64,000 bases of DNA from Pseudorhodoferax soli. Its GTDB lineage: Bacteria; Pseudomonadota; Gammaproteobacteria; Burkholderiales; Burkholderiaceae_C. The translations under genes were made by a program, and so were the position numbers. Below the pieces are notes generated by a model, which did not search any database, was not told where the DNA came from, and worked only from the letters and a program-made list of their open reading frames with translations. The stretch lies in NCBI RefSeq assembly GCF_003337555.1, contig NZ_QPJK01000002.1, positions 372,001 through 436,000 on the forward strand, written 5' to 3'. Positions 842-15,182 of the stretch are shown here, piece after piece (within the stretch, counting starts at the first letter, position 1; every line of letters starts with the position of its first letter).

Positions 842-874
842 CAGTTTCGGGGATTGCGACAAGGCAGGAATTCG

Positions 875-1405
875 ATGGCTACAGAGGGAAAAGAGCCCAA
901 ACCGCAGCGGTCTCAAAAGCGGCCATCCGGTGCACATTTCGACCCGATCCAGCAGGTGCTGTGGGCACGGCCGGGGTTTCTGGTGCGCCGGCTGAACCAG
1001 ATCCACTACGCCTTGTTCGCGGAAGAGTGCAAGACCTACAGCATGACGCCCGTGCAGTTCGGCGTGCTGACGGCCCTGTCGCTGAACCCCTGGCTCGACC
1101 AGACCGCCATCGGCAGTGAACTGGGACTGGACCGCACCACCACCGCCGACGTGCTCAAGCGCCTGGAGGAGAAGAAGCTCATCGAGCGGCGCATCAACCC
1201 GGCCGACCGGCGCTCGCGCCAGTCCATGATCACCGAAGAGGGCTACCACGCCATGAAGTCGCTGCACGAGAGCATGATGGCCGCGCAACAGCGGCTGATG
1301 GCGCCCCTCTCGGCACGCAACCAGGAGATATTCCTGAAGCTGTTGTCCACGCTGGTGGACGGCAACAACGAATACTCGCGCGCCCCGACGCGCGCAGCGC
1401 TGTAG
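875..1405 (+). CDS. picR: MarR-family repressor of the pyridine degradation cluster (PicR/NicR-like)
   Basis: This 176-residue protein has a MarR winged-helix fold. The recognition region is around residues 65-100 (TAIGSELGLDRTTTADVLKRL) and is followed by the wing motif RRINPADRRS. I chose the ATG at 875, which has AGGAA five bases upstream, over an in-frame TTG at 854. MarR proteins of the NicR/PicR type repress nicotinate or picolinate operons and are released by a pathway intermediate such as 6-hydroxynicotinate or 6-hydroxypicolinate. The gene converges on nicF with only 25 bp between the stops. Its promoter region and both catabolic promoters carry the same TCAGTANNCT element, so local repression is the natural reading. 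Ligand identity is inferred. Confidence 0.75.
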   Translation: MATEGKEPKPQRSQKRPSGAHFDPIQQVLWARPGFLVRRLNQIHYALFAEECKTYSMTPVQFGVLTALSLNPWLDQTAIGSELGLDRTTTADVLKRLEEKKLIERRINPADRRSRQSMITEEGYHAMKSLHESMMAAQQRLMAPLSARNQEIFLKLLSTLVDGNNEYSRAPTRAAL

Positions 1406-1430: not shown

Positions 1431-2054
1431 TCAGCCTGCGGTGGCCGCCAGCGCCTGATCGCGGTCCAGCAGGATCGCGTACTTCTGCCCCATGTCGAAC
1501 AGGTTGGCCTCGTGCGGCGCCAGCGCGCGGTCGCCCACGCAGTCCGTCACCACCAGCGGGCGGAAACCCCAGGACATCGCATCGACCACGCTGGCGCGCA
1601 CGCAGCCGCTGGTCACCGCGCCCGCCACCAGCAGCGTCTGCACGCCGCGCTGCGCAAGCCATGGCGTGAGGCCCGTGGCGAAGAAGGCCGAGGGCACGGT
1701 CTTGCGCACCACCAACTCGCCAGCCACGGGCGCGAGCACATCGACGATCTGGCTGGCGGCCAAGTCCTCCTTGAGGCCGAGCATGGTCGGCACCTTGAGC
1801 GAGAAGACGTTGTGGTCGGCGTCGTCGTCCTGGTAGACGATGCGGCTGTGCGCCACCGGCCAGCCGCGCGCGCGTGCCGTGGCCAGCAGTTCGCGCGTGC
1901 GTTCGATGGCCGCCGGAATGTTGCCCCCGCCGAACTGCGCCGGGTCGGCGAAGCCGTTCACAAAGTCGACGATCAGCAGCCCATAGGGTGCCTTGGGCGG
2001 CATGGCCGCACCGAAACCCTGGCGCGCATAGACAGCGCTCTCGGCCTGGCTCAT
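1431..2054 (-). CDS. nicF: Maleamate amidohydrolase (isochorismatase family)
   Basis: This 207-residue cytoplasmic hydrolase converts maleamate to maleate and ammonia, a late step of the 2,5-dihydroxypyridine (maleamate) pathway. The isochorismatase-fold catalytic triad is visible as Asp30 (LLIVDF), Lys118 (VVRKTV) and Cys151 (VTSGCV). The non-prolyl cis peptide region before the cysteine is also conserved. The start at 2054 overlaps the nicX stop as ATGA, so the two are translationally coupled and nicF is the last gene of the operon. Family assignment is firm. The specific substrate follows from the adjacent nicX, nicD and maleate isomerase genes. Confidence 0.9.
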   Translation of the reverse strand: MSQAESAVYARQGFGAAMPPKAPYGLLIVDFVNGFADPAQFGGGNIPAAIERTRELLATARARGWPVAHSRIVYQDDDADHNVFSLKVPTMLGLKEDLAASQIVDVLAPVAGELVVRKTVPSAFFATGLTPWLAQRGVQTLLVAGAVTSGCVRASVVDAMSWGFRPLVVTDCVGDRALAPHEANLFDMGQKYAILLDRDQALAATAG

Positions 2055-3094
2055 GCCGCACCTCCGTCCAGCACCTTGCCTCGGCGCACGACCACCTCGC
2101 CGTCCAGGCTGACGGTGCAATTGCGCAGCGGGATGTCGATGTGGCAGGCCGTGGTGCGCTGGCCGCCGGCCTCGTTGTTCGGCCCCAGGGAGAACAGGAA
2201 GTTGCCCTCGAACGCGCGTGCGTCCATGGCGATGGTCTGCTCCTTGTCGTACATCGCCAGCGTGCTCCAGTGGCAGCGCGGCTGCAGGCCCCAGCCGATG
2301 TGCGACATGGCGTAGGCCTCGGGGTCGCGGAAGGTCGCCATGTACTCGCTCAGCAACTGCGCGTCAATGCCGCCCTCGATGGCGCGGGCGTAGCCCTTCT
2401 CGATCGTCAGGCGGATCGGCGCCGTCGTGTAGCTCTTCTGCGGCAGCACGATGTCGCCCGTGTCGACCACGATGGTGCCGTTGCTGCCGCCTTCGTTGGC
2501 GAAGGTGAAGAGGAAACCGCTGGGCCAGTGGTCCCAGCGGCCCGGCTCGTCCACGAAGCCGTACTCGCAGATGGTCGGGAATTCGCCGAGCTGGAAGGTC
2601 ACGTCGGTGCCTGCTTCGGAGGTGACGTGCATCGTCTTCGCCTTCTTGAGCTTGGTCGATGCGGCGAGCACGCGCGCGCGGTCCGCTTCGGTGGGCACGG
2701 TGCGCACCAGCACTTCGGGGGGCTCCACCGCCAGCAGGATCTTGGTGCCGGATTCCAGGATGTCGATCTGCTCGGGCGAGAACAGCAGCGTCATGAGGTC
2801 CAGCACCAGGTCGCTGGCCTTGAGCGCGGCGATCGCGGCCGGGTTGCCCGTGAGCGGCGTCTCGCCCAGATAGGCCAGCGCGTCGCGGCTCAGCGCCTTG
2901 TCGGCGTTCACGGGCGGCAGGTCGATGCGGCTCACGATGGCGCCCGCCGCCTGGGCTGCCATGGTGGCCGCGCGCAGGGTTTGCGGGTGCGTGGCCGCAC
3001 CGGTCAGGATGGTCACGGCCTGGCCGGGTTGCACCTCGGACAGGCGCAGCACCTCGCTCCAGGCCTGGGTCAATTGGTGGTCGCTGACGGGCAT
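2051..3094 (-). CDS. nicX: 2,5-dihydroxypyridine 5,6-dioxygenase
   Basis: This 347-residue non-haem Fe(II) dioxygenase opens the ring of 2,5-dihydroxypyridine to N-formylmaleamate. Its length and sequence match NicX of the nicotinate pathway and PicD of the picolinate pathway, an enzyme type with an M29-aminopeptidase-like fold. The three iron ligands known in Pseudomonas putida NicX are found at identical numbers: His265 (AMSHIG), His318 and Asp320 (ACHID). Glu177 (CEYG) is also present. It sits 10 bases after nicD and overlaps nicF by four bases. A good AGGAG-type ribosome site precedes the ATG. This is the most diagnostic gene of the cluster, because ring cleavage by this family commits the pathway to the maleamate route. 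Confidence 0.95.
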   Translation of the reverse strand: MPVSDHQLTQAWSEVLRLSEVQPGQAVTILTGAATHPQTLRAATMAAQAAGAIVSRIDLPPVNADKALSRDALAYLGETPLTGNPAAIAALKASDLVLDLMTLLFSPEQIDILESGTKILLAVEPPEVLVRTVPTEADRARVLAASTKLKKAKTMHVTSEAGTDVTFQLGEFPTICEYGFVDEPGRWDHWPSGFLFTFANEGGSNGTIVVDTGDIVLPQKSYTTAPIRLTIEKGYARAIEGGIDAQLLSEYMATFRDPEAYAMSHIGWGLQPRCHWSTLAMYDKEQTIAMDARAFEGNFLFSLGPNNEAGGQRTTACHIDIPLRNCTVSLDGEVVVRRGKVLDGGAA

Positions 3095-3104
3095 GGGTTC
3101 TCCT

Positions 3105-3926
3105 TCAAACGGGGGTGCCCAGGAAGTCGCCGAAGCCGGCGTAGAAGCCGGCCTCGTTGTCCCAGGGGATCATGTGGCCGGCGCCGGGCACGCGGTGGTG
3201 GCGCACGCCGGGCAGCAGTCGCTCGATCTCGGCCACATCGTCTGGCAGGACCACGTCGCCGCGCTCGGCCGTCATGAGCAGCGCCGGCACGCGGATCGCG
3301 GGCAGGCAGGCGTGGATGTCGTCGGTATGGAAGCCGTCGAACGAGCTCTTGATCGCGCGCGGGTCGCAGGTGTGCAGCCACTCGGCGCGCAGGTCGAGCT
3401 GGGCGTCGGTCCACGTGGGGCAGAACTTGCGCATGGCCTCGCGGTCGCAGCCGATGCTGGCGGCCGCGATGGAGTCGGCATACCAGGCGTAGTTGGCCGG
3501 GTAGGCGCGGCGGCCCGGTCCGGAAACGGGCGGGTCGACGATGACCACGCGCGACAGGCCGGCCGGCGCCTGCGCAGCGGCGCGCGCCACGATGCGCCCG
3601 CCCATGGAATGACCGACGAGCGCGAAGCGCGCCAGGCCCAGCGCCTGCACCAGCGCCAGCACGTCGGCCGTCTGCGCTTCGAGCGAATAGTCCAGCGTGT
3701 CGGAGGCTGACGACAGGCCACGCCCCCGCACGTCGAGCACATAGGTGTCGAAGTTGCGGCCCAGCCGCTCGCCGACGAAGCCCCAGGTGATGGCCGGGCT
3801 GGTGACGCCGGGCACCAGCACGACGGTGTCGCGCTCGGTCCGGCCTTCGCCAGAACCGCCGTAGCGCAGCACGTGCTGGCGGATGCCGTTGGCGGCGATG
3901 TTGGCGCCGTACAGGAAGGTGCTCAT
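3105..3926 (-). CDS. nicD: N-formylmaleamate deformylase (alpha/beta hydrolase)
   Basis: From the ATG at 3926 this is a 273-residue alpha/beta hydrolase that removes formate from N-formylmaleamate to give maleamate. The nucleophile elbow is GHSMGG with Ser107. The acid is probably Asp131 in VIVDPP and the histidine is His251 in GAGHMIPW. Length and the conserved GVTSPAITWGF oxyanion region agree with NicD. An in-frame GTG at 3938 would add four residues; I prefer the ATG. It lies 12 bases downstream of the maleate isomerase gene and 10 bases before nicX in the same operon. The substrate assignment rests on family resemblance plus context. Confidence 0.9.
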   Translation of the reverse strand: MSTFLYGANIAANGIRQHVLRYGGSGEGRTERDTVVLVPGVTSPAITWGFVGERLGRNFDTYVLDVRGRGLSSASDTLDYSLEAQTADVLALVQALGLARFALVGHSMGGRIVARAAAQAPAGLSRVVIVDPPVSGPGRRAYPANYAWYADSIAAASIGCDREAMRKFCPTWTDAQLDLRAEWLHTCDPRAIKSSFDGFHTDDIHACLPAIRVPALLMTAERGDVVLPDDVAEIERLLPGVRHHRVPGAGHMIPWDNEAGFYAGFGDFLGTPV

Positions 3927-3938
3927 GGCGGCGCCCAC

Positions 3939-4691
3939 TCAGTAGGCGCCGGAGAGCAGCGCACCGGCACCCGGCACCACGCGATCCAGCCCCAGCGACT
4001 TGAGCATGGCGTAGGTGGTGGCCACCGCGGCCGTGATGACGGGCTTGCCAGTCATCGCCTCGACCTGGGCGATGGCCGGCAGCGAGGGCATCTGTACGCA
4101 GGCCGACAGCACGATGGCGTCGGCGTCGGCATGGTTCAGCGTCTTGACGATCTCGGGCAGGCGCGCCGGGTCGTGGCGGCCCACGTCCAGGTTGTCGGGG
4201 ATCTCCAGCGCGCGGTAGTCCAGCACCTCGTGGCCTTCGCGGCGGATGTAGTCGACCACCAGTTCGGTGAGCGGCAACATGTACGGGGCCACCACCACGA
4301 TCTTCTTCGCGCCGATCACCTTGAGCGCATCCACCAGGGCGCCCGCGCTCGTGATCACCGGGGCCGTCGCGCCGTTCTCCTCGGTGCGCTGGGTCAGGCG
4401 TTGCTGCGAGACGCGGTGGTAGCCGGGCCCCATGGCCATGATGGCGACCAGGCAGGCATAGCCCAGCACGTCCACGCGCGCGTCGCTGAGTTCCACGGCG
4501 CAGCGGTCGGATTCGCCGTCCATGGCCGCCAGTTCCTCCTTCACCACCTTCTTCATGCGCATGCGGCTGGAATGGAAGGTGAAGCGCTCGGGCCGGATCT
4601 GCAGGCGCGCCGTCAGCATCGCCGGGATCTCTGTCTCCATCGTGGTGTTGGAGCTGGGGACGATCTGTCCGATGCGAAAGGTCTTGGTCAT
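3939..4691 (-). CDS. maiA: Maleate cis-trans isomerase (Asp/Glu racemase superfamily)
   Basis: This 250-residue enzyme converts maleate to fumarate and so delivers the pathway product to the TCA cycle. It belongs to the Asp/Glu racemase superfamily. The two catalytic cysteines of maleate isomerases are present at Cys80 (GYACLV) and Cys198 (LSACVQ), and the substrate-binding motif PSSNTTMETE is at residues 12-21. It corresponds to NicE of nicotinate clusters and PicG of picolinate clusters. It follows the decarboxylase gene after nine bases and is followed by nicD. Arylmalonate decarboxylases are related but have only one of the two cysteines, so that alternative is unlikely. Confidence 0.92.
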   Translation of the reverse strand: MTKTFRIGQIVPSSNTTMETEIPAMLTARLQIRPERFTFHSSRMRMKKVVKEELAAMDGESDRCAVELSDARVDVLGYACLVAIMAMGPGYHRVSQQRLTQRTEENGATAPVITSAGALVDALKVIGAKKIVVVAPYMLPLTELVVDYIRREGHEVLDYRALEIPDNLDVGRHDPARLPEIVKTLNHADADAIVLSACVQMPSLPAIAQVEAMTGKPVITAAVATTYAMLKSLGLDRVVPGAGALLSGAY

Positions 4692-4700
4692 GGTCTTGTC

Positions 4701-5663
4701 TCAGAGATTGAACAGTCGGCGGGCGTTGCCGTGGCAGACGAGATCGCGCGTGGCGGCGTCCAGCGGCGCCTGCTCGATGAACTGGCAGGCGTCCACGGTC
4801 GATTCGTAGGGGTAGTCGATCGAGAACAGCACGTTCTCTGCACCCATCTCGCCGATCGCGCCCAGCAGCGAGGGCGCCGAGCACACGCCCGAGGTGGTGA
4901 TGAAGAGGTTGGACTGGAAGTAGGCCGAAGGCGGCTTCTTGAGCGTGATGCCGTGCGGGTAGGCCGCGAAGCGGCTGTCCAGCCGCCAGCGCATGAAGGG
5001 CAGGAACTCGCCCATGTGGCCCAGTACCACCTTGAGGCCGGGGAAGCGGTCGAACACGCCGCCGAACAGCAGGCGCAGCGCATGGCCGCCGGTCTCCATG
5101 GCCCAGCCGAAGGTGGCGCCCTGCAGCACCGGCACGTCGGCCAGCAGGGCCGGCACGGCGCTGAAGTTGGCCGGGTGCAGGTAGATCGGCGCGCCCAGCG
5201 CCTCGGCCCGTTCCCAGAACACGTCGAAGGCCGGATCGTCGTAGTAGCGGCCGCATGTGTGGCCGTTGATCAGCGCACCCTTGAAGCCCAGCTCCGTCAC
5301 CGCGCGCTCGAGCTCGCGCGCCGCCAGCTCCGGCTGGTGCATGGCCAGGTGGGCGAATCCGCCGTAGCGGTCGGGCCGGCGCGCCACGCGCTCGGCCAGG
5401 AAATCGTTGTTCTCGGCCGCGCGGCGCAGGGCCAGCGCCGCATCGGGCTCGGCCTGCATGCCGGGCGCGCTCTGCGACAGGATCACGTACTGCACGTTGC
5501 CGGCGGCCATGTCGTCCAGCCGCGCGTCGTCGAAATCGGCCAGCCGCGTGAGCAGGTCCTTGCGGGCATCGGCGGGCAGGTGCTGGGTGAAGGCCTTGGC
5601 GTACTCGGAGAAGACGGGTACGGAGAAGTGCTCTTCGAAGGCGATCTTGGGTGTGGCGTTCAC
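4701..5663 (-). CDS. picC: Non-oxidative decarboxylase, amidohydrolase-2 family (PicC-like 3,6-dihydroxypicolinate decarboxylase)
   Basis: This 320-residue protein belongs to the metal-dependent decarboxylases related to gamma-resorcylate and 2,3-dihydroxybenzoate decarboxylase. The family's E-x-H metal motif is at Glu10-x-His12 (FEEHF). Other ligand or catalytic residues are His163 (YLHPANF), His216 (LGHMGE) and Asp283 (SIDYPYE). It is encoded between the Rieske oxygenase and the 2,5-dihydroxypyridine genes. The obvious job is therefore removal of CO2 from 3,6-dihydroxypicolinate to give 2,5-dihydroxypyridine, as described for PicC of Alcaligenes faecalis JQ135. A decarboxylase of a benzoate-type acid is the alternative, but the surrounding pathway argues for the pyridine substrate. 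Confidence 0.82.
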   Translation of the reverse strand: MNATPKIAFEEHFSVPVFSEYAKAFTQHLPADARKDLLTRLADFDDARLDDMAAGNVQYVILSQSAPGMQAEPDAALALRRAAENNDFLAERVARRPDRYGGFAHLAMHQPELAARELERAVTELGFKGALINGHTCGRYYDDPAFDVFWERAEALGAPIYLHPANFSAVPALLADVPVLQGATFGWAMETGGHALRLLFGGVFDRFPGLKVVLGHMGEFLPFMRWRLDSRFAAYPHGITLKKPPSAYFQSNLFITTSGVCSAPSLLGAIGEMGAENVLFSIDYPYESTVDACQFIEQAPLDAATRDLVCHGNARRLFNL

Positions 5664-5686: not shown

Positions 5687-6199
5687 TCAGGCGGGATAGA
5701 CCAGGTCGTTGGCGAGGATGTTGGTGTCGTGCACGACCTGGCGGTCGGCCAGCAGCAGCCGGCCGTCCTGGCGCACGAAGCGGTCGTGGTAGCAGCCGGC
5801 CAGGTGCAGGGTCGAGGGGCCCTCCACCAGCGTCTGCACGAGCATGAAGGGCGTCTGGGCCAGGATGCCGTCGGGCGTTGCCGACTCGACGCGCGTGAGC
5901 CCCAGCAGGTGCAGCATGTAGCGCGGCGCGAACATCTGGGTGCGCGAGATCGCCACGGCGCGGTCGATCATCATGGCGCGGCCTTCGCAGTAGACGAGGC
6001 CGACGGGCAGGTCGAGTTCGGCGTTCTCGCGCGCGGTGACGCGGTACACCGCATCCTCGGTGAAGAAGTCGGGCCAGCGCTCCAGGTCATTGGCATCGAG
6101 CACGGCGCAGTACTCGGCGTTGAACAGCTCGATCTCCTGGCGCAGCGCGATGGCCTGGGCGGGCGCGAGCTGGCAGGGGCGGTAGGCGGTGAGCTTCAT
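5687..6199 (-). CDS. Ring-hydroxylating oxygenase beta subunit
   Basis: This 170-residue protein has the NTF2/SnoaL-like fold of aromatic-ring dioxygenase beta subunits. It shows the typical opening EIELFNAEYCAVLD and the segment RWPDFFTEDAVYRV. Beta subunits pair with the Rieske alpha subunit and are mostly structural. The start at 6199 overlaps the alpha stop (ATGA), so alpha and beta are translationally coupled at equal dosage. I infer it is one of the four parts of a 6-hydroxypicolinate 3-monooxygenase-type system (PicB-like). I do not assign a subunit number because I cannot align it to the reference. Confidence 0.85.
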   Translation of the reverse strand: MKLTAYRPCQLAPAQAIALRQEIELFNAEYCAVLDANDLERWPDFFTEDAVYRVTARENAELDLPVGLVYCEGRAMMIDRAVAISRTQMFAPRYMLHLLGLTRVESATPDGILAQTPFMLVQTLVEGPSTLHLAGCYHDRFVRQDGRLLLADRQVVHDTNILANDLVYPA

Positions 6200-7506
6200 G
6201 CGGCACCCCCTTCCACCGGCAGGCCCATGACCTGCCGGTAGTAGATGTACATGGCGCGGATGGCCGCTTCGGAGATCAGGCTCTCCGAGGTGCCCACGCG
6301 GCCCGGATCGAGCTTGATGTGGTTGATGCCCGTGCTGGAGCGGCGCACTCCCTCCTGCACGAACTTCATGGCCTCGTTGTCCTCCAGCCCCAGGAAGCCG
6401 GCCGGGCCCATCAGGTTGCCCTGGCGCAGCCGGTGGCGCTGCATCTCCGGCGTGTCGTCCTCGTAGCCGAACATGGTCCACTGCATGACCATGCTGTTCG
6501 GGCCGTTGGGGATGATCTGGCGCACGCCCAGCGTGTTCATCTCGCGCTGCACGATGAGGTTGGGCCAAACCGTCATCATGGTCACCGACCAGGGCGAATC
6601 GAACTCGCGCACGAAGTCGAGGAAGCGCTCGTCCTGCAGCCGCAGGCCATCATGGAAGGAGCGCATCTCCTTCTTGTTCTCCTCGCTCACGCTGGCGTAC
6701 TTGTCCTCGGACTTGGCCGAGCCCATGAAGCCGTGCCGGCCGTGCACGGTGTCGGCGAACATGGTCGACTTGTTGCCCGCCACCAGCAGGCCGAACACCA
6801 CGAGGAAGGAGTGCAGCAAGGTCGCGTGGTACGGGTCCTTCAGGTTCTCGTGGTACATCTTCCAGTTGCAGGGCAGCTCGTTGCGGTAGTAGCCCAGCAC
6901 CTTGAGCTTCTTGCCCGTGAACGTGGTGTCGAACTCGTCCAGGATCTCGGGCGTGAGATAGTCCTCCAGCGGCTCCACGGTGTCGGAGTAGGAGGCGAAC
7001 ACCACGCCGTGCCGCGTGGCCACGCGCAGCTGGCGCGTGCCGTGGTCGGCGTTGCGGAAGTCCTTGGGCATGCCGCCGGCCTTGTTCACGCCGCGCTTGA
7101 ACGGCACGCCCTGCAGGTTGCCCTTGAGGTCGTAGGACCACTGGTGGTACGGGCAGACGAACTCCTTGGCATTGCCCTGGTTGTGGCGGCAGAACTCGGC
7201 GCCGCGGTGGGCGCAGCGGTTCTCGAACACGGCGATGCTGCCGTCCTCGGCGCGCGCCACCACCACCGGCGTGGCGCCCACGTAGGAACGCTTGTAGTCG
7301 CCCACGTTCGGGATCTCGGCCTCCAGCGCAACGTAATTCCAGGTGGCGCCGCGGAATATCTTCTCCATCTCGCTGTCGTACAGCGGCTGGCTGGTGTAGA
7401 CCCAGTCGGGAATGGTGTTGAGGGCATCGGCCGGCCAGACGCAGCCGTCCAGCGGCACGTTCTTGGACGCGTCCGTGATGCCGATCACGGTTTGGGATTG
7501 GTACAT
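6196..7506 (-). CDS. Rieske non-haem iron oxygenase alpha subunit (internal start)
   Basis: Read from the ATG at 7506 behind a perfect AGGAGG six bases upstream, this is a normal-length alpha subunit of 436 residues. The Rieske [2Fe-2S] ligands are Cys98-x-His100 and Cys118-x2-His121. The catalytic iron site is in the motif NLKDPYHATLLH, with Asp224, His227 and His232. Such enzymes hydroxylate aromatic rings using electrons passed from the reductase through the ferredoxin. Its position beside the decarboxylase and nicX suggests hydroxylation of 6-hydroxypicolinate at C3. The same residues form the C-terminal half of the fusion frame described in the previous entry. Which product predominates is unknown. 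Confidence 0.85.
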   Translation of the reverse strand: MYQSQTVIGITDASKNVPLDGCVWPADALNTIPDWVYTSQPLYDSEMEKIFRGATWNYVALEAEIPNVGDYKRSYVGATPVVVARAEDGSIAVFENRCAHRGAEFCRHNQGNAKEFVCPYHQWSYDLKGNLQGVPFKRGVNKAGGMPKDFRNADHGTRQLRVATRHGVVFASYSDTVEPLEDYLTPEILDEFDTTFTGKKLKVLGYYRNELPCNWKMYHENLKDPYHATLLHSFLVVFGLLVAGNKSTMFADTVHGRHGFMGSAKSEDKYASVSEENKKEMRSFHDGLRLQDERFLDFVREFDSPWSVTMMTVWPNLIVQREMNTLGVRQIIPNGPNSMVMQWTMFGYEDDTPEMQRHRLRQGNLMGPAGFLGLEDNEAMKFVQEGVRRSSTGINHIKLDPGRVGTSESLISEAAIRAMYIYYRQVMGLPVEGGAA

Positions 7507-8781
7507 GGGTGTTCCTCCTGGAAAGCGCCAGGCCACGGCCTGCGTGGCCTTGACCCAGGCACGCAGCGGGCCCGCATGGGCCACGAACGCATCCGGGTCG
7601 AAGGGAGTGCGGGCGTCGAACAGCGCACGCAGCGCGCGCAGTTCGCCACCGGCGTTGAGGGCGATGCCGTGCACCGGCACGCCGGCGCGGTGGCCGATCC
7701 ACAGGGCCTGTGCATTGGCGGCGGGATCGCCTCGGCGCACATACGCCAGGTCGGGCGCGGCCAGGCCCAGCATCTGCAGGTTGTGCGGGCCCTGGTCTGT
7801 CCAGAACCAGGGGTAAGGCACCACAGGCTGCGGCAGGCCCAGCATGCCGGCCGCGGCGGCGCGCGCCTGCTCGTTGGCGTTCTGCCAGGACTCCAGCCGC
7901 AGCTGCAGGCCCAGGTGCGGGTTGAACTGGCTGGCGCAGTCGCCGGCGGCGAAGACCTGCGGGTCGGAGCTGCGGCACTGCGCGTCCACGGCGATACCGC
8001 CGTTGCGCGCATCGATCTGCAGCCCCGCGGCACGGGCCAGCTCCGTTTCTGGCTCCAGGCCAATGGCCACCAGCACCTCGTCGGCCTGCACCACGGCGCC
8101 ATCGTCCAGCACGAGTTGCACGCCCCGGGCGTCGACCTTCGCCTCGCGCAGGGCACGGCCGAGCCGCAGCGTCACACCGCGCCCACGCGCTGCGTCGGCC
8201 AGCCAGGCCGACGCGTCGGCCGGGAGGAAGCGCGACAACAGGGCCGGCGCACTCTCCACCACGGTGGCCTGCGCGCCGAGCGCCTGTGCCGAAGCCGCCG
8301 CCTCCAGGCCCAGGAAGCCGCCACCGACCACGGCAAGCCGCACACCTGGCGCGAGCGCGCTGCGCAGGCGGCGCGCGTCGTCCAGGCTGCGCAGGTAGTG
8401 CACTCGGGGCGTGCCGGGCGGCAGCGCCGCGAGCACGCGCGCCCGTCCGCCGGTGGCCAGCAGGCATTGCCGGTACGCCAGCACGCGGCCATCGCCCAGG
8501 TGCACGGTGCGCTGCGCCAGGTCCAGCCGCTCGGCGCGCGCGCCGGAGATGAAGGTCAGGCCGCAGCCTTCGAACTGCGCAGGAGCCAGCACGTCCAGCG
8601 CCGGTTCCTGCGCCTCGCACAACACCGCCTTCGACAAGGGCGGGCGCTCGTACGGCCGATGTGCCTCCGCACCGACCACCACCAGCCCGCCGCCGTAGCC
8701 GGCCCCGCGCAGCGCCTGGGCGGCCCGTGCCGCAGCCTGGCCGGCACCGACGACGACGATGGGCGCGTCGGCTGCTGTCAT
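6196..8781 (-). CDS. Ferredoxin reductase fused in frame to Rieske oxygenase alpha subunit
   Basis: One frame of 861 codons covers two enzymes. Residues 1-425 are an FAD-dependent ferredoxin-NAD(P)H reductase. It has an FAD motif VVVGAGQAAARA near residue 8, an NAD-binding VVGGGFLG near residue 150 and the second FAD motif FAAGDC near residue 270. Residues 426-861 are the Rieske oxygenase alpha subunit. No stop codon separates them: the reductase ends TQAVAWRFPGGTP and continues directly into the alpha methionine. A strong ribosome site (AGGAGG, 7512-7517) lies inside the junction, so alpha can also start by itself at 7506. Related systems encode the two separately. The gene starts by ATGA overlap with the ferredoxin gene. 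Either a true fusion with dual products or a lost stop codon (mutation or sequence error) would explain this. Confidence 0.8.
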   Translation of the reverse strand: MTAADAPIVVVGAGQAAARAAQALRGAGYGGGLVVVGAEAHRPYERPPLSKAVLCEAQEPALDVLAPAQFEGCGLTFISGARAERLDLAQRTVHLGDGRVLAYRQCLLATGGRARVLAALPPGTPRVHYLRSLDDARRLRSALAPGVRLAVVGGGFLGLEAAASAQALGAQATVVESAPALLSRFLPADASAWLADAARGRGVTLRLGRALREAKVDARGVQLVLDDGAVVQADEVLVAIGLEPETELARAAGLQIDARNGGIAVDAQCRSSDPQVFAAGDCASQFNPHLGLQLRLESWQNANEQARAAAAGMLGLPQPVVPYPWFWTDQGPHNLQMLGLAAPDLAYVRRGDPAANAQALWIGHRAGVPVHGIALNAGGELRALRALFDARTPFDPDAFVAHAGPLRAWVKATQAVAWRFPGGTPMYQSQTVIGITDASKNVPLDGCVWPADALNTIPDWVYTSQPLYDSEMEKIFRGATWNYVALEAEIPNVGDYKRSYVGATPVVVARAEDGSIAVFENRCAHRGAEFCRHNQGNAKEFVCPYHQWSYDLKGNLQGVPFKRGVNKAGGMPKDFRNADHGTRQLRVATRHGVVFASYSDTVEPLEDYLTPEILDEFDTTFTGKKLKVLGYYRNELPCNWKMYHENLKDPYHATLLHSFLVVFGLLVAGNKSTMFADTVHGRHGFMGSAKSEDKYASVSEENKKEMRSFHDGLRLQDERFLDFVREFDSPWSVTMMTVWPNLIVQREMNTLGVRQIIPNGPNSMVMQWTMFGYEDDTPEMQRHRLRQGNLMGPAGFLGLEDNEAMKFVQEGVRRSSTGINHIKLDPGRVGTSESLISEAAIRAMYIYYRQVMGLPVEGGAA

Positions 8782-9095
8782 GGCGCAGCCGGGTCGACGA
8801 CGTAGATCTCGTCGCCCTCGCGGCGCACGGCGTGCGTGCGCAGGTCGACGGTGGCCGGCGCGCACAGGGCCTTGCCGGTGCGGATGTCGAAGCGCGCCTG
8901 GTGCAGCGGGCACTCGATGCAGCCGTCCTCCAGGTAACCCTCGGACATCGACGCCTCCGCATGGGTGCAGCGGTTGTCGGTGGCGAAGAACTCGCCCGCG
9001 CTGCGGTACAGCGCGATGCGGGCGCTGCCCACGGTGACGGCCATGACCTCGTCGTCCTGCAGGTCTTGGGCAGATGCGATGCGTATCCAGTTCAT
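8778..9095 (-). CDS. Rieske-type [2Fe-2S] ferredoxin
   Basis: This small 105-residue electron carrier has the Rieske cluster ligands Cys43-x-His45 (NRCTHAE) and Cys62-x2-His65 (ECPLHQ). I start it at the ATG at 9095; an upstream in-frame start at 9119 would add eight residues. It is the first gene of the minus-strand operon. It would shuttle electrons from the ferredoxin reductase to the oxygenase encoded by the next genes, with which it overlaps as ATGA. It resembles BphF/NdoA-type ferredoxins of multicomponent oxygenases. Its promoter region carries a candidate repressor site overlapping the start of transcription. Confidence 0.9.
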   Translation of the reverse strand: MNWIRIASAQDLQDDEVMAVTVGSARIALYRSAGEFFATDNRCTHAEASMSEGYLEDGCIECPLHQARFDIRTGKALCAPATVDLRTHAVRREGDEIYVVDPAAP

Positions 9096-9153
9096 CGGGG
9101 CAGCTCGGTTTGGGAACATCGATCGACAGCACGGTTCATGCCATCAAAATTAC

Positions 9154-9524: not shown

Positions 9525-10613
9525 ATGCAACGTCGTGGTTTTCTGAGTCAGGCCGCCGTCGCCGGCGCCGGAGCCGCCGCCCTCGCCGCCCCGTCCGCAC
9601 AGGCGCAGGCCACCGTGCGCTGGCGCATGTCCACCTCCTGGCCCAAGAGCCTGGACAACATGTATGGATCGGCCGAGCTGCTGTGCAAGCGCGTGGGCGA
9701 GCTGTCGGGCGGCCGCTTCGAGATCCGCGCCTTCCCCGGCGGCGAGATCGTTCCGCCCGCGCAGAACATGGACGCCGTCAGCAACGGCACCGTGGAATGC
9801 AACCACGTGCTGGCCACCTTCCATTTCGGCAAGAACAGCGCGGTGGCGTTCGACACCGGCCTGTCCTTCGGACTCAACGCACGCCAGCACAACGCCTGGG
9901 TCATGCACGGCGGCGGCCTGGCCCACCTGCGCAAGCTCTACAAGCAGTACGGCATCGTCAACTTCACGAGCGGCAACGTGGGGGTGCAGATGGGCGGCTG
10001 GTTCCGCAAGGAGATCAAGTCGGTGGCCGACCTGCAGGGCCTGAAGATGCGCATCGGCGGCATCGGCGGCATGGTGATGTCCAAGCTCGGCGCGCTGCCG
10101 CAGCAGATCCCGCCGGGCGACATCTATCCCTCGCTGGAGAAGGGCGCGATCGATGCGGCCGAGTGGATCGGCCCCTACGACGACCTCAAGCTGGGCCTGA
10201 ACAAGGTGGCGCCCTACTACTACTCGCCCGGCTGGTTCGAGGGCAGCGCGTCCATCACCACCATGGTCAACGAGAAGGCCTGGGCCGCGCTGTCGCCCGA
10301 GTTCAAGGCCATCTTCGAGACCGCCTGCAACGAGCAGACGCTGTCCATGCTGGCGCGCTACGACGCCACCAATCCTGGCGCCCTCAAGCAGCTCATCGCC
10401 GGCGGCGCCAAGCTCGCCTACTTCCCGCGCGACGTGATGGACGCTGCCTACAAGGCCTCGCAGGAAGTCTGGAAAGAGCTGTCCGACAAGAACCCCGACT
10501 TCGCCGCGATCTTCCCGCAGTGGCAGGCGTTCCAGAAGGAGCAGGTGGAGTGGTTCCGCGTGGCCGAAGCCGCGCTGGACGGCTACACCTTCAACGCCGT
10601 TTCCCGCCGCTGA
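9525..10613 (+). CDS. TRAP transporter substrate-binding protein (DctP family, Tat-exported)
   Basis: This 362-residue periplasmic binding protein begins with a twin-arginine signal (MQRRGFLSQ, then a hydrophobic Ala-rich stretch ending in AQA near residue 28). The mature part follows the DctP/TakP pattern, with the arginine-containing GLKMRIGG segment and the substrate-loop motif AAEWIGPYDD, and probably binds a carboxylate. GAAGGA lies seven bases before the ATG. It opens a nine-gene operon whose last two genes encode the TRAP membrane subunits, so its partners lie 7.2 kb downstream. Given the pathway, a pyridine carboxylate such as picolinate is the likely ligand. That is inference. Confidence 0.88.
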   Translation: MQRRGFLSQAAVAGAGAAALAAPSAQAQATVRWRMSTSWPKSLDNMYGSAELLCKRVGELSGGRFEIRAFPGGEIVPPAQNMDAVSNGTVECNHVLATFHFGKNSAVAFDTGLSFGLNARQHNAWVMHGGGLAHLRKLYKQYGIVNFTSGNVGVQMGGWFRKEIKSVADLQGLKMRIGGIGGMVMSKLGALPQQIPPGDIYPSLEKGAIDAAEWIGPYDDLKLGLNKVAPYYYSPGWFEGSASITTMVNEKAWAALSPEFKAIFETACNEQTLSMLARYDATNPGALKQLIAGGAKLAYFPRDVMDAAYKASQEVWKELSDKNPDFAAIFPQWQAFQKEQVEWFRVAEAALDGYTFNAVSRR

Positions 10614-10645: not shown

Positions 10646-13048
10646 ATGGACCACAGTGACAACCCGGGCACCCGGACGAAAGCGCAGGGCATCGGCGCCC
10701 GGGTGCCGCGCAAGGAAGACGCCCGCCACCTGGCGGGCCAGGGCAACTTCGTCGGCGACATGGCCATGCCGGGCCTGTGCGAGGTGGCCTTCCTGCGCAG
10801 CCCGCTCGCGCACGCACGCATCGTCTCGGCCAACGTGCCGGCCGATATCGCCGAACTGGTGGTGCTGCGCGATGCCATGCCCGATGCGCAGGACATCGTC
10901 TCGCCCTCCACGTTGCCGACCTACCAGCCCTCGGCGCAGTCGCCGCTGGCCTCGGGCAAGGTGCGCTTCGTCGGCGAGCCGGTGGCGCTGGCCTTCGCGC
11001 CCACGCGGGCACAGGCCGAAGACCTGGTCGAGCGCGTGGAGGTGGAGTACGCCGAACTGCCGGTCTATGCCAACGTGTGGTCGGCGCTGGACGCCACCGA
11101 GGACTTCGTGCACGAGACCTGGCACGACAACCGCTTCGTGACGCTCAAGGCCGACCGCGACTTCGACCAACTCGCGGCCACGGCCGAAGTCAAGGTCTCG
11201 CGCCGCATCGAGCTGTCGCGCCAGTGCATGGTGCCCATGGAAGGCAAGGCCGTGCTGGCCTACTGGGACTTCCAGGCCGACCAGTTGGTGGTGGTGAGCG
11301 CTACGCAGGTGCCGCACCTGATCCGCACCGGCATCGCCAGCTTCCTCGACCTGCCCGAAGAGCGCGTACGCGTGATCTCGCCCGACGTGGGCGGCGCCTT
11401 CGGCTACAAGTGCGTGCTGCAGCAGGAAGAGCTCTGCGTGGCCTGGCTGGCCAAGACCTACCGGCGCCCGTTCCGCTTCCTCGAAGACCGGCGCGAGCAC
11501 CTGATCGCCGGCGCCAACTCGCGCCAGCACCATTACGAGGTGACGGCCTATGCCGACCGGCGCGGCCGCCTGCTGGCGCTGGACGCGGTCATCACCATCG
11601 ACGGCGGCGCCTACTCGGTCTGGCCCTTCACCGTGGGCCTGGAGCCCGGCCAGGCCGTCGGCAATCTGCCCGGCCCCTACGACTTCCGCGGCTACCGCTG
11701 CGAGACACGCTGCGTGGCCACCAACAAGCCCGGCTTCGTGCCCTACCGCGGCGTGGCGCGCACCGGCGTGTGCTTCGCGCTGGAACTGCTCATGGACGCA
11801 TTGGCCCGCGAGGTCGGCCGCGACCCCTCCGAGGTGCGTCTCGAGAACCTGGTCCGCCCCGAGCAGATGCCCTATGTGAACGTGGCCAACAAGCACTTCG
11901 ACGGTGGCGACTACCCGGCCAGCCTGCGCCGCGCGCTGGAGATGGTCGGTGCCGACGCCGTGCGCGAACGCCAGCGCCGCGGCGAACCCGACGGCCGGCG
12001 CATCGGCCTGGGCTGCGCCACCTACACCGAGCAGTCCGCCCACGGCACCTCGGTGTTCGCCACCTGGGGCACGGCCGTGATCCCCGGCCACGACCAGGCC
12101 ATGGTGCGCATGACGCCGGACGGCGGCCTGGAGCTGCGCGTGGGCGTGCATTCGCACGGCCAGGGCATGGAGACCAGCTTCGCCCAGATCGCCCACGAGG
12201 TGCTGGGCATCGCCGTCGAGCGCATCCGCCTGCTGCATGGCGACACCGGCCAGACCCCCTACTCCACCGGCACCTACGCCTCGCGCTCGCTGGTGATGTC
12301 GGGCGGCGCGGTGTCCATCGCCTGCAAGCAGCTCGCGCCCCGGCTGCGCCACATCGCCGGCCACCTCATGGGCGTGGACCCGGCGGTGGTTGCGCTGGCC
12401 GACGGCCGCGCCTGGGCCGGCGAACAGTCGGTCACGCTGGCCGACGTGGCCAACGCCTGGTACGTGACACCGCAGCGCCTGCCTGCCGACGTGGACCGCG
12501 CGGGCCTGGAGGTGTCGACCGGCTACAAGCCCAAGGTCGACACCGGCGCCTTCACCTACGCCAGCCAGGCCGCCGTGGTGGCGGTCGACCCGGAGACCGG
12601 CGCCATCGAGATCCTGGACTACGTGGTGGTGGAAGACTGCGGCGTGATCGTCAACCCCATGATCGTCGAGGGCCAGACCATCGGCGGCATCGCCCAGGGC
12701 ATCGGCACCGCGCTGTACGAGGAGATGCCGTACGACGAGCAGGGCCAGCCGCTGGCCTCCACGCTGGCCGACTACATCCTGCCGGGCGCCACCGAAGTGC
12801 CGCACATCCGCATCGACCACTTCGAGACGCCCTCGCCGCACACCGAGTTCGGCGCCAAGGGCATGGGCGAAGGCGGCGCCATCGCACCGCCTGCCGTGCT
12901 GTTCAACGCCGTCAACGACGCGCTGCGCGGCACCGGCGCGCCCGAGCTGCTGATGACGCCGCTGACGCCGCGCCGGCTGCTGCAGGCGCTGGCGCAGGGC
13001 CGGGCCGCCGCCACCAGCACGGTCGCGGCCGCGGAGGCCGCGCCATGA
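10646..13048 (+). CDS. Molybdenum hydroxylase large subunit (xanthine dehydrogenase family, PicA-like)
   Basis: This 800-residue molybdopterin-binding subunit belongs to the xanthine oxidase family. The N-terminal a/b hammerhead (about residues 10-130) is followed by the two Mo-cofactor domains. The catalytic base glutamate is in the family motif GMGEGG at Glu742. Such enzymes hydroxylate N-heterocycles next to the ring nitrogen using water. Here the likely reaction is picolinate to 6-hydroxypicolinate, the first step of the pathway. It overlaps the FAD subunit as ATGA and begins 32 bases after dctP. No clear ribosome site precedes the ATG, so translation may depend on coupling to dctP. The family is certain and the substrate inferred. 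Confidence 0.85.
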   Translation: MDHSDNPGTRTKAQGIGARVPRKEDARHLAGQGNFVGDMAMPGLCEVAFLRSPLAHARIVSANVPADIAELVVLRDAMPDAQDIVSPSTLPTYQPSAQSPLASGKVRFVGEPVALAFAPTRAQAEDLVERVEVEYAELPVYANVWSALDATEDFVHETWHDNRFVTLKADRDFDQLAATAEVKVSRRIELSRQCMVPMEGKAVLAYWDFQADQLVVVSATQVPHLIRTGIASFLDLPEERVRVISPDVGGAFGYKCVLQQEELCVAWLAKTYRRPFRFLEDRREHLIAGANSRQHHYEVTAYADRRGRLLALDAVITIDGGAYSVWPFTVGLEPGQAVGNLPGPYDFRGYRCETRCVATNKPGFVPYRGVARTGVCFALELLMDALAREVGRDPSEVRLENLVRPEQMPYVNVANKHFDGGDYPASLRRALEMVGADAVRERQRRGEPDGRRIGLGCATYTEQSAHGTSVFATWGTAVIPGHDQAMVRMTPDGGLELRVGVHSHGQGMETSFAQIAHEVLGIAVERIRLLHGDTGQTPYSTGTYASRSLVMSGGAVSIACKQLAPRLRHIAGHLMGVDPAVVALADGRAWAGEQSVTLADVANAWYVTPQRLPADVDRAGLEVSTGYKPKVDTGAFTYASQAAVVAVDPETGAIEILDYVVVEDCGVIVNPMIVEGQTIGGIAQGIGTALYEEMPYDEQGQPLASTLADYILPGATEVPHIRIDHFETPSPHTEFGAKGMGEGGAIAPPAVLFNAVNDALRGTGAPELLMTPLTPRRLLQALAQGRAAATSTVAAAEAAP

Positions 13049-13911
13049 AGGCCGCTGCATTCGACTACCGCAGCCCCGACAGCCTGCTGGCCGCCACGCA
13101 GCTGCTGGCCGAGCAGGCAGGCCGGGCCAAGCTGATGGCCGGCAGCCAGTCCTTCGGCCCGATGCTGAACCTGCGCCTGACCCGGCCGCAGCTCGTCGTG
13201 GACATCTCGCGCCTGGCCGAACTGGCCGGCGTGCGCGTGGCCGACGGCCAGGTGGAGATCGGCGCCGGCGTCACCCATGCCGCCATCGAGGACGGCCTGC
13301 ACGCGGCGCTGCGCGAGCACCCCATGCGCGAAGTCGCGGCCGGCATCGCCTACCGCGCCGTGCGCAACCGCGGCACGCTGGGCGGCAGCCTGGCGCACGC
13401 CGACCCCGCCGCCGACTGGATCGTCACGCTCACCGCGCTCGGCGCCCGGCTCACGCTGCGCTCGCCGCGCGGCACGCGCAGCATCGCCCTCGAAGAATTC
13501 ATGCACGCCGCCTACACCACCGCGCTGGACGCGGACGAGGCCATCGCCGCCGTCCACGTGCCGCAAGCCACCACCGGCCACCGCTGGGGCTACTACAAGT
13601 TCTGCCGCAAGCCCGGCGAGTTCGCCGAGGCCAGCGCCGCCGTCTGGCAGGGCGCCGGCCAGCCGCAGGCGCGCATCGTGCTCGGCGCGCTGGACGGCGC
13701 GCCGCTGCAGCTGCCGGCCCTGGCCGAGCGCATCGCGGCGCAGGGCGCGGCCGCCGCCACGCGCGAGGCCCTGGCCAGCGCCGTGCACGCCGCCCTGCCC
13801 GGCCGCGATGCGGTCGACCACCAGTTGCACACGGTCTGCCTGGCGCGCGCACTGGCGCAAGCCGGCCTGGCCACCGCGCCGGCCACCCAGCCGGCGGGAG
13901 CACACGCATGA
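13045..13911 (+). CDS. Molybdenum hydroxylase FAD-binding medium subunit
   Basis: This 288-residue subunit has the FAD-binding PCMH-type fold of CoxM/xanthine dehydrogenase medium subunits. The FAD loops are visible as KLMAGSQS (about residues 32-39) and RNRGTLGGSLAHADP (about 108-122). It takes electrons from the Mo centre via the iron-sulfur subunit. It is coupled to the large subunit by an ATGA overlap, with GGAGG nine bases upstream, and to the small subunit by a second ATGA overlap. The gene order L-M-S matches many Burkholderiales N-heterocycle hydroxylases. Confidence 0.9.
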   Translation: MKAAAFDYRSPDSLLAATQLLAEQAGRAKLMAGSQSFGPMLNLRLTRPQLVVDISRLAELAGVRVADGQVEIGAGVTHAAIEDGLHAALREHPMREVAAGIAYRAVRNRGTLGGSLAHADPAADWIVTLTALGARLTLRSPRGTRSIALEEFMHAAYTTALDADEAIAAVHVPQATTGHRWGYYKFCRKPGEFAEASAAVWQGAGQPQARIVLGALDGAPLQLPALAERIAAQGAAAATREALASAVHAALPGRDAVDHQLHTVCLARALAQAGLATAPATQPAGAHA

Positions 13912-15182
13912 ACACCGTGACGCTCGAAGTCAACGGCCGGCCCCTGTCGGCCGAGGTCGAACCGCGCACCCATCTGGGCGACTTCCTGCGCGACACCGTG
14001 CGCCTGACCGGCACCCACCTGGGCTGCGAGCATGGCGTCTGCGGTGCCTGCACGGTGCTGGTGGACGGTGCGCCCACGCGCTCGTGCATCACCTTCGCCG
14101 TGGCCTGCCAGGACCGCTGCGTCACCACCGTCGAAGGCTACGACGGGGATGCGCTGATGGGCCGCCTGCGCGCGGCCTTCACGCAGCACCATGCGCTGCA
14201 GTGCGGCTTCTGCACCCCCGGGATGCTGGCCACGGCACGTGACATCGTGCTGCGCCTGCCCGAGGCCGACGAGGCCCGCGTGCGGCTGGAACTGTCCGGC
14301 AACCTGTGCCGCTGCACGGGCTACATGGGCATCGTCGCCGCCATCCGCGACGTGCTCGGCCAGCTGCAACGCGAGCCCGACCCGGCCATCGCCGCGCTGC
14401 GGGATGCCGCGCGCGCCGGCCGGCCGCTGGTGCCAGCGGCGGCCACCGCCCCGGCCCAAGGTGCAGCCCGGCCCATGCCGGTCTTTCCGATCGCCACCGC
14501 ACGGCCGGCGGCAGCCACGGGCTTGCCCGCGGCGACTGCCGTCGCAACGCCTGCCCAGGCAGCCGCCGTCACGCCACGGGCCGACACCACGCCGCAGCCC
14601 GATGTGCCCGCAGCAGCCATCCGCAAGGGCACGCAGATCGACGCCGCCTTCGAACTGCCGTTCGGCGCCGATGCCGTCTGGGCCTTCATGGGCGACCTGC
14701 CGGCCGTGGCCGGCTGCCTGCCCGGCGCGGTGATCGAGTCCCAGGACGGCGACAAGGTCAAGGGCAGCATCGCCATCAAGTTCGGCCCCATGGCCGCAGC
14801 GTTCGCGGGCGCGGCCCGCCTCGAGCGCGACGACGCGGCACGCCGCGCCGTGCTGCGCGGCGCCGGCAAGGACTCGCTGAGCCAGTCGCGCGCCCAGGGC
14901 GACATCGCCTACCGGCTCGAAGCGCTGTCGCCGCAGCGCACGCGTGTGCATGTGGACATGCTGTACGCGCTGCAGGGCCCGCTGGCGCAGTTCTCGCGCT
15001 CCGGCTTGGTCAAGGACTTCGTGCGCCGCATGGTGGCCGACTTCGGCCAGCAGGTCGCGTTGCGCATGGGCGGCGCCGCCAGCGGCGAAGCCACGCCACC
15101 GCCGGCCGCCGTGAGCCCTGTCGCCATCGTCTGGAGCCTGCTGCTGCAGCGCCTGCGCCGGCTGTTCGGCGGTGGCCGCTGA
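13908..15182 (+). CDS. Molybdenum hydroxylase [2Fe-2S] small subunit fused to a CoxG-type SRPBCC domain
   Basis: This 424-residue protein joins two modules. Residues 1-155 are a standard small subunit with two [2Fe-2S] clusters: a plant-type one (CEHGVCGAC) and a helical one (QCGFC and GNLCRCTGY). A low-complexity Ala/Pro linker of about 80 residues follows. Residues about 240-390 form a CoxG-like SRPBCC domain (AFMGDLPAVAGCLPGA, then IKFGPMAAAFAG), ending in an amphipathic tail. In carbon monoxide dehydrogenase CoxG helps anchor the enzyme to the membrane, so the fusion suggests membrane docking of electron delivery. Small subunits alone are about 160 residues. The fusion occurs elsewhere in the family but is not the usual form. 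Confidence 0.88.
   Translation: MNTVTLEVNGRPLSAEVEPRTHLGDFLRDTVRLTGTHLGCEHGVCGACTVLVDGAPTRSCITFAVACQDRCVTTVEGYDGDALMGRLRAAFTQHHALQCGFCTPGMLATARDIVLRLPEADEARVRLELSGNLCRCTGYMGIVAAIRDVLGQLQREPDPAIAALRDAARAGRPLVPAAATAPAQGAARPMPVFPIATARPAAATGLPAATAVATPAQAAAVTPRADTTPQPDVPAAAIRKGTQIDAAFELPFGADAVWAFMGDLPAVAGCLPGAVIESQDGDKVKGSIAIKFGPMAAAFAGAARLERDDAARRAVLRGAGKDSLSQSRAQGDIAYRLEALSPQRTRVHVDMLYALQGPLAQFSRSGLVKDFVRRMVADFGQQVALRMGGAASGEATPPPAAVSPVAIVWSLLLQRLRRLFGGGR

Follow-up and report, generated by a model that had tools for sequence, protein, structure and literature searches.

Rieske oxygenases depend on loosely associated redox partners, and this limits their use. Can such a partner be built into the oxygenase chain itself? 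The question is raised by a locus of Pseudorhodoferax soli, within a 64,000-nucleotide stretch of contig NZ_QPJK01000002.1 (positions 372,001 to 436,000; hereafter the window, whose own coordinates are used below). An initial annotation, made from the letters of this DNA, had described a ferredoxin reductase gene that runs without a stop into the gene for a Rieske oxygenase alpha subunit, and had suggested that a fusion and free alpha could both be made. Here we report that the fused frame is present, that a related clade carries a longer fusion that also includes the ferredoxin, and that the junction before alpha usually keeps a candidate start site of its own.

The single reductase-alpha frame is confirmed. 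Nucleotides 8781-6196 on the minus strand form one open frame of 861 residues whose sole stop is terminal, and Pfam recognizes the domains of both partners in it: Pyr_redox_2 (residues 8-306), Reductase_C (325-408), Rieske (480-565) and Ring_hydroxyl_A (626-852). The ferredoxin--NAD(+) reductase part (7507..8781, minus strand) comprises 425 codons with no stop, matches Pyr_redox_2 at 4.6e-64 and Reductase_C at 4.5e-16, and has GxGxxG-type motifs at residues 12 and 153. The remaining 436 amino acids (6196..7506, minus strand; Rieske 1.6e-18, Ring_hydroxyl_A 1.2e-16) are a Rieske oxygenase alpha subunit, probably of the PicB type. In the numbering of the fusion, CAHR at 523 and CPYH at 543 hold the Rieske ligands, and DPYHATLLH at 649 contains two histidines of the iron triad. 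A plain four-gene operon whose frames merely coincide is ruled out, as no stop interrupts the frame.

The junction also holds the signals for a second start, again as first described. An AGGAGG Shine-Dalgarno (SD) sequence lies at 7514..7519 on the minus strand (cctcct on the plus strand), and the internal ATG of alpha, at 7504-7506 on the same strand, comes 7 nucleotides after it. The predicted duplex of this site with the anti-SD sequence has an energy of -10.3 kcal/mol, stronger than those at the assumed alpha starts of 72 distinct relatives with separate genes (median -6.6, best -9.1 kcal/mol). An alpha subunit begun at this ATG matches the separate alphas of relatives in length and N-terminus. 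With one open frame and a strong ribosome-binding site embedded in it, the 861-residue fusion and free alpha could both be made; to that extent, as a possibility, the proposal of two products stands.

Does the fused chain dispense with ferredoxin? The initial annotation supposed that it would skip or channel that step. The skipping finds no support: a Rieske [2Fe-2S] ferredoxin (8778..9119, minus strand; Pfam Rieske 1.1e-21; CTH and CPLH ligands) is encoded directly upstream, its stop overlapping the reductase ATG in the sequence ATGA, and the fused chain of the sister clade includes a ferredoxin. The adjacent gene rules out ferredoxin-independent electron transfer as the default reading. The true start of the ferredoxin is likely Met9 (about 9095), because the match to relatives begins at residue 9. 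Among NCBIfam models it just passes PRK09965 (113.5 bits, cut-off 113), and the HcaC and AndAb models fall under their own cut-offs. At the other end, the beta subunit (5687..6199, minus strand; SnoaL_4 and Ring_hydroxyl_B; NCBIfam AndAd-like at 1.2e-35, below cut-off) starts in an ATGA overlap with the alpha stop. The four components occupy three frames, since reductase and alpha share one.

Is such a fusion peculiar to this DNA? Our first set of relatives was the best 80 of at least 557 confirmed loci in a large genome collection. Both genes were found in 79 of the 80; in 28 of these 79 they form one open frame and in 51 they do not. Further searches brought the number of classified loci to 143, namely the window and 142 that were fetched; as they were drawn by similarity to the queries the counts describe this sample and not prevalences. 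Besides the window, 44 distinct loci are fused (and 12 more have identical DNA), 72 distinct loci are separate (and 10 more), and 4 have no reductase next to alpha.

Leaving the window aside, every one of the 44 distinct fused loci is a triple fusion: a single frame, about 940-1000 codons long or, in a few cases, longer through extension upstream, encodes ferredoxin, reductase and alpha (first seen in 51 loci, 50 from the searches and L120). They include L029-L037, L039-L047 (without L038), L052, L055, L056, L058, L064, L067, L069, L072, L073 and L084, among others. At the level of open reading frames (ORFs), then, these sister-clade loci place all three components in one chain, which the window, with its separate ferredoxin, does not. 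The hosts are Alphaproteobacteria, Alcanivoracaceae and Saccharospirillum. One record titled Mesoflavibacter (Bacteroidota), L044, holds a triple fusion whose alpha falls among those of Alphaproteobacteria on the tree; this metagenome-assembled genome may be misnamed. One triple fusion lies on a complete plasmid of Paracoccus seriniphilus (L120:3003-5852, NZ_CP067132.1), where the annotated alpha coding sequence (WP_272850375.1) starts at an internal ATG at 4605 and no coding sequence covers the ferredoxin-reductase part; the gene table of the collection that holds L120 is known to be incomplete. With fused proteins as queries, stop-free matches were found in 16 of 195 genomes of a Bradyrhizobium genus sample, 5 of 248 of a Rhodobacterales family sample and 5 of 46 of an Alcanivoracaceae sample, each count including the query's own genome.

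Across 26 aligned triple fusions, every protein matches the expected Pfam domains, and no variation is seen in the CxH/CxxH of the ferredoxin, in the main glycines of the two nucleotide-binding motifs, in the CxH/CxxH of alpha or in the H-x4-H. A beta match lies downstream of alpha in each of the 28 triple loci of the first set. On a tree of alpha sequences (a quick method, with Shimodaira-Hasegawa-like approximate likelihood-ratio (SH-aLRT) support only and a very long outgroup branch), the 41 fused-clade rows form one group with SH-aLRT 99. The triple fusion apparently arose once and was then retained.

The window does not belong to this group. It falls among 57 rows (SH-aLRT 98) with 54 separate and 2 reductase-less rows, which rules out its membership of the old fused clade. 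The fused state requires two changes on the tree, so the window would represent a second, independent fusion. The junctions of related genomes give a divided answer: fused ones exist in the sister clade, all of them triple, and the nearest relatives of the window have the genes separate. The gene was not found, at the cut-off used, in five other genomes of the window's genus; samples of the genus, family and order yielded no second copy of the window's own junction; and no other betaproteobacterial relative examined has a fusion of this type. In Variovorax, the genus of locus L023, 21 of 101 genomes matched at 23 places, of which 0 are fused. Other arrangements occur as well. In four loci from Pseudomonas and Caballeronia (L082, L085, L087 and L088) the reductase frame overlaps the alpha start with no gap and stops at +5 or +11, and in L038, L117, L119 and L092 no adjacent reductase was found beside alpha. 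L038 has beta and pic lower-pathway genes and no ferredoxin or reductase match; its electrons may come from elsewhere.

How was the window fusion formed? In the two closest loci, L009 and L010, a stop lies 39 bases before alpha, and in 28 of the 72 distinct separate-gene relatives both genes are in the same frame with a stop between them. Because such same-frame relatives carry that stop, the fusion is best read as a lost stop and not as a chance sharing of frame. Close to where the reductases of relatives end, the window has a TGG codon (7528..7530, minus strand). It differs by a single base from both TAG and TGA, and the fusion would thus be explained by one substitution at this codon, whether genuine or a base-calling error. 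As reconstructed on the alpha tree, it is a private loss of a stop codon within a separate-gene clade, and a single substitution is its simplest origin.

A single-base sequencing error is the main doubt. The window could be an ordinary four-gene operon whose real reductase stop, near 7528-7530, was lost to a wrong base call, a one-base indel or an assembly fault. The position and sequence of the TGG codon suit this explanation, as does the separate state of all 72 distinct reductase-bearing relatives outside the triple-fusion clade. A similar difference between Trp and stop is seen in L020, a Cupriavidus locus with separate genes, whose alpha has an in-frame stop at codon 24 (6285-6356) where the others have Trp; it is either a pseudogene or a sequencing error. 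An indel fits poorly, however: the last 78 nucleotides of the reductase part contain no homopolymer longer than 3, and shifting the reductase frame by one base would bring its stop 19 nucleotides (shift 1) or 854 nucleotides (shift 2) inside alpha. The error would have had to strike one particular codon, and the window begins 372 kb from the start of its contig, one of 30 in the assembly. We consider an error unlikely.

Is the internal start before alpha a feature of these fusions or an accident of the window? For each distinct fused ORF we searched the 40 codons ahead of the alpha core for the in-frame ATG or GTG that is preceded by the best anti-SD match. At a threshold of -6.5 kcal/mol or below, 37 of 43 ORFs have such a site, and all 43 have one at -5.9 or below. 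Windows of the same size elsewhere in the same ORFs reach -6.5 in 11.4% of cases, and the linker between ferredoxin and reductase does so in 7 of 40; the reading that such sites simply occur throughout these ORFs is therefore rejected. Under the same rule the real starts of separate-gene relatives reach -6.5 in 41 of 72 (median -6.6) and the triple set in 38 of 44 (median -8.7). A start at least as strong as real ones is therefore kept at the alpha junction, and in most cases not at the junction of ferredoxin and reductase. Against shuffles of synonymous codons the excess is weaker (Fisher p 2e-4 on 27 representatives, 0.0026 on 20). These patterns suggest that the internal start could be a simple genetic device that sets the ratio of tethered to free subunits.

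The site might instead be a relic of a separate-gene ancestor, with only the long chain made and free alpha negligible. The alpha gene of separate-gene relatives does start at that place, and elongating ribosomes may hide internal sites. Neutral relics, however, would be expected to have decayed. In the old fusion clade the linkers have diverged and the start floats between 7 and 32 codons before the alpha core (WP anchor), yet a strong in-frame site is kept in the 37 ORFs counted above. We therefore judge it improbable that the long chain is the only product.

How would such an enzyme work? In the scheme we favour, ribosomes starting at the reductase ATG (8781) would make the 861-residue chain, with its flavin adenine dinucleotide (FAD)- and NADH-binding reductase, a flexible linker of about 20 residues and an alpha part with Rieske and mononuclear iron centres, while those starting at the strong internal SD and ATG (7506) would make free alpha. 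Both forms would then join beta in mixed oligomers bearing one or few tethered reductases. NADH would reduce FAD, from which electrons would travel by way of the separate Rieske ferredoxin to the Rieske cluster of alpha and finally to the iron. The tether would raise the local concentration of the reductase without removing the ferredoxin, and the tethered reductase, in the sister clade together with its ferredoxin, would feed the Rieske centres of the same oligomer. The sister clade would have ferredoxin, reductase and alpha in one chain and would keep the internal start for alpha alone. On the sequence evidence, the most likely outcome is that the cell produces the long chain as well as free alpha and that both assemble with beta.

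Structure models show linkers of low confidence. The AlphaFold model of the window fusion has a mean predicted local distance difference test (pLDDT) score of 82.7 and a predicted template modelling (pTM) score of 0.53. Its pLDDT falls below 50 at residues 417-437 (7471..7533, minus strand), a linker predicted to be flexible; the reductase is mostly above 85, and alpha is mixed, with 10-residue means of 37-97 and parts below 60. A triple fusion, L043, gave low-confidence linkers at 108-120 and 525-566 (mean 72.3, pTM 0.51), with a thin alignment and several further alpha stretches below 50. Both are single-chain models, in which the positions of the domains relative to each other are not fixed. 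The disordered linkers, and the possibly recent origin of the private window fusion, would also suit a tolerated accident: the chain is made, but its linker is cleaved or the tether is catalytically worthless, and the enzyme remains an ordinary multicomponent one. The sister clade speaks against this: none of its 41 rows on the tree has lost the fusion, and the cofactor ligands are unchanged in the 26 aligned triple fusions. We find such an accident distinctly unlikely.

What reaction might the oxygenase catalyse? Its neighbours resemble picolinate (pic) gene clusters, for which an excerpt of PMC10142695 lists PicA, PicB, an amidohydrolase-family PicC and a 2,5-dihydroxypyridine branch. Downstream on the minus strand lie a PicC-like 3,6-dihydroxypicolinate decarboxylase of the amidohydrolase family (4701..5663; Amidohydro_2 1.7e-39), a maleate isomerase-like protein (3939..4691; Amdase 6.7e-20, a racemase-type family; EutA-like below cut-off), an N-formylmaleamate deformylase-like alpha/beta hydrolase (3105..3938; Abhydrolase_1), a 2,5-dihydroxypyridine 5,6-dioxygenase-like protein (2051..3094) and a maleamate amidohydrolase-like protein (1431..2054; Isochorismatase 7.6e-37). 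The families fit; the names of the isomerase, the deformylase and the amidohydrolase are taken from their place in the cluster. The dioxygenase-like protein has no Pfam match and is 72% identical over 343 amino acids to a gene so annotated in L122, a Variovorax VAI-C plasmid. A PicR-like MarR regulator follows on the plus strand (854..1405; MarR_2 1.1e-12). Divergent from the oxygenase operon, also on the plus strand, are a solute-binding protein of the tripartite ATP-independent periplasmic (TRAP) type (9525..10613; DctP 4e-56) and a PicA-like molybdenum hydroxylase (10646..15182) with large (10646-13048), FAD-binding (13045-13911) and [2Fe-2S] (13908-15182) subunits, the first two named from annotated genes at the like place in relatives. 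The [2Fe-2S] subunit matches Fer2, Fer2_2 and COXG in Pfam; its C-terminal CoxG domain (PF06240) is another fusion of usually separate parts. Because these neighbours match pic clusters, the oxygenase is most likely PicB, 6-hydroxypicolinate monooxygenase. Its alpha is 79% and its reductase 42% identical to those of L018, from Alcaligenes faecalis AU14. We conclude that it is probably the PicB equivalent, with 6-hydroxypicolinate as the putative substrate. In the first set, the fetched flanks contain at least one pic-type neighbour for 25 of the 28 triple fusions and for 50 of the 51 loci with separate genes; for a lower-pathway gene the counts are 14 of 28 and 33 of 51.

Taken as a whole, we think it fairly probable that the window encodes a pic-type oxygenase that has lost a stop, is made as a long chain and as free alpha, forms mixed oligomers and keeps its ferredoxin, with the triple fusion as its sister-clade counterpart. 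Several points weigh against this reading. The window fusion is one sequence only and could be one wrong base; the L020 alpha stop indicates that single-base defects or errors occur in these data. The excess over synonymous shuffles is modest (median p 0.20, with 7 of 27 below 0.1), since the codons of an acidic linker (EE, ED) often produce GAGGA in any case; the p-value is generous because the representatives are related. Six ORFs (L042, L047, L055, L056, L084 and L120) have a weak motif, at -5.9, and the SD sites inside the ORFs could be left over from a time when the genes were separate. The lower-pathway gene is found in only half of the 28 triple loci, and 3 of the 28 have no tested pic neighbour. 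The make-up of PicB, a Rieske enzyme with these four kinds of component, is putative and read from synteny with L018. Finally, the long chain and free alpha are predicted from the genes.

A wider proposal seems to us evenly balanced between right and wrong: that the first self-sufficient Rieske oxygenases from nature are to be found among picolinate-pathway enzymes, in an alpha- and gammaproteobacterial clade with one ferredoxin-reductase-alpha gene; that a conserved internal start adds free alpha, so that translation sets the number of electron-transfer arms per alpha-beta oligomer; and that the window went part of the way to this design independently, as a second case, joining reductase and alpha only. 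The triple-fusion clade and the independent window fusion would then offer ready-made designs and linkers for one-chain Rieske oxygenases, and the device at the alpha junction would be open to adjustment of the tethered:free ratio by changing the start site.

How new is this architecture? The initial annotation held that the layout was not known for the class, and the case has grown stronger: a passage of a 2025 review (PMC12445004) states that self-sufficient systems have yet to be identified among Rieske oxygenases and names one-chain versions as a goal, and in an excerpt of PMC9508527 self-sufficiency is used for a P450 only. Among the open-access titles and beginnings of abstracts listed, a scope with few subscription journals, we found no report of a natural fusion of ferredoxin or reductase to a Rieske oxygenase. 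Public annotation that starts alpha at the internal ATG, as in L120, may help explain this absence.

Among known systems, PicB of A. faecalis JQ135 and Bordetella probably has the same order of ferredoxin, reductase, alpha and beta beside pic-type genes, to judge by L018 of strain AU14. Its components are encoded by four separate genes, named picB1B2B3B4 in an excerpt of PMC10142695, whereas the window joins reductase and alpha in one frame and the sister clade adds the ferredoxin. In NCBIfam, the anthranilate 1,2-dioxygenase models AndAa, AndAb, AndAc and AndAd give the top match to alpha and to beta, come second after HcaD for the reductase and rank third for the ferredoxin, all below cut-off: 437.1 of 750 bits for alpha, 323 of 650 for the reductase, 110.9 of 150 for the ferredoxin and 122.4 of 230 for beta. 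The components of that enzyme come from separate genes, and those of salicylate 5-hydroxylase are likewise separate. The large subunit of the latter (PDB 7c8z) is the closest solved alpha by sequence (E 3.3e-120). In cas8b/Cas11b, according to an excerpt of PMC11899642, one gene also gives rise to two products, a long protein and a separate subunit that equals its C-terminal portion; that system is not a redox enzyme, and its short form was demonstrated by experiment, whereas ours is read from the genes. Self-sufficient cytochrome P450s such as CYP116B, though unrelated as enzymes, likewise carry their electron-transfer parts on the same natural polypeptide as the oxygenase. Measured against these systems, the enzyme is of a known kind; what appears new is its architecture, together with the start embedded in it.

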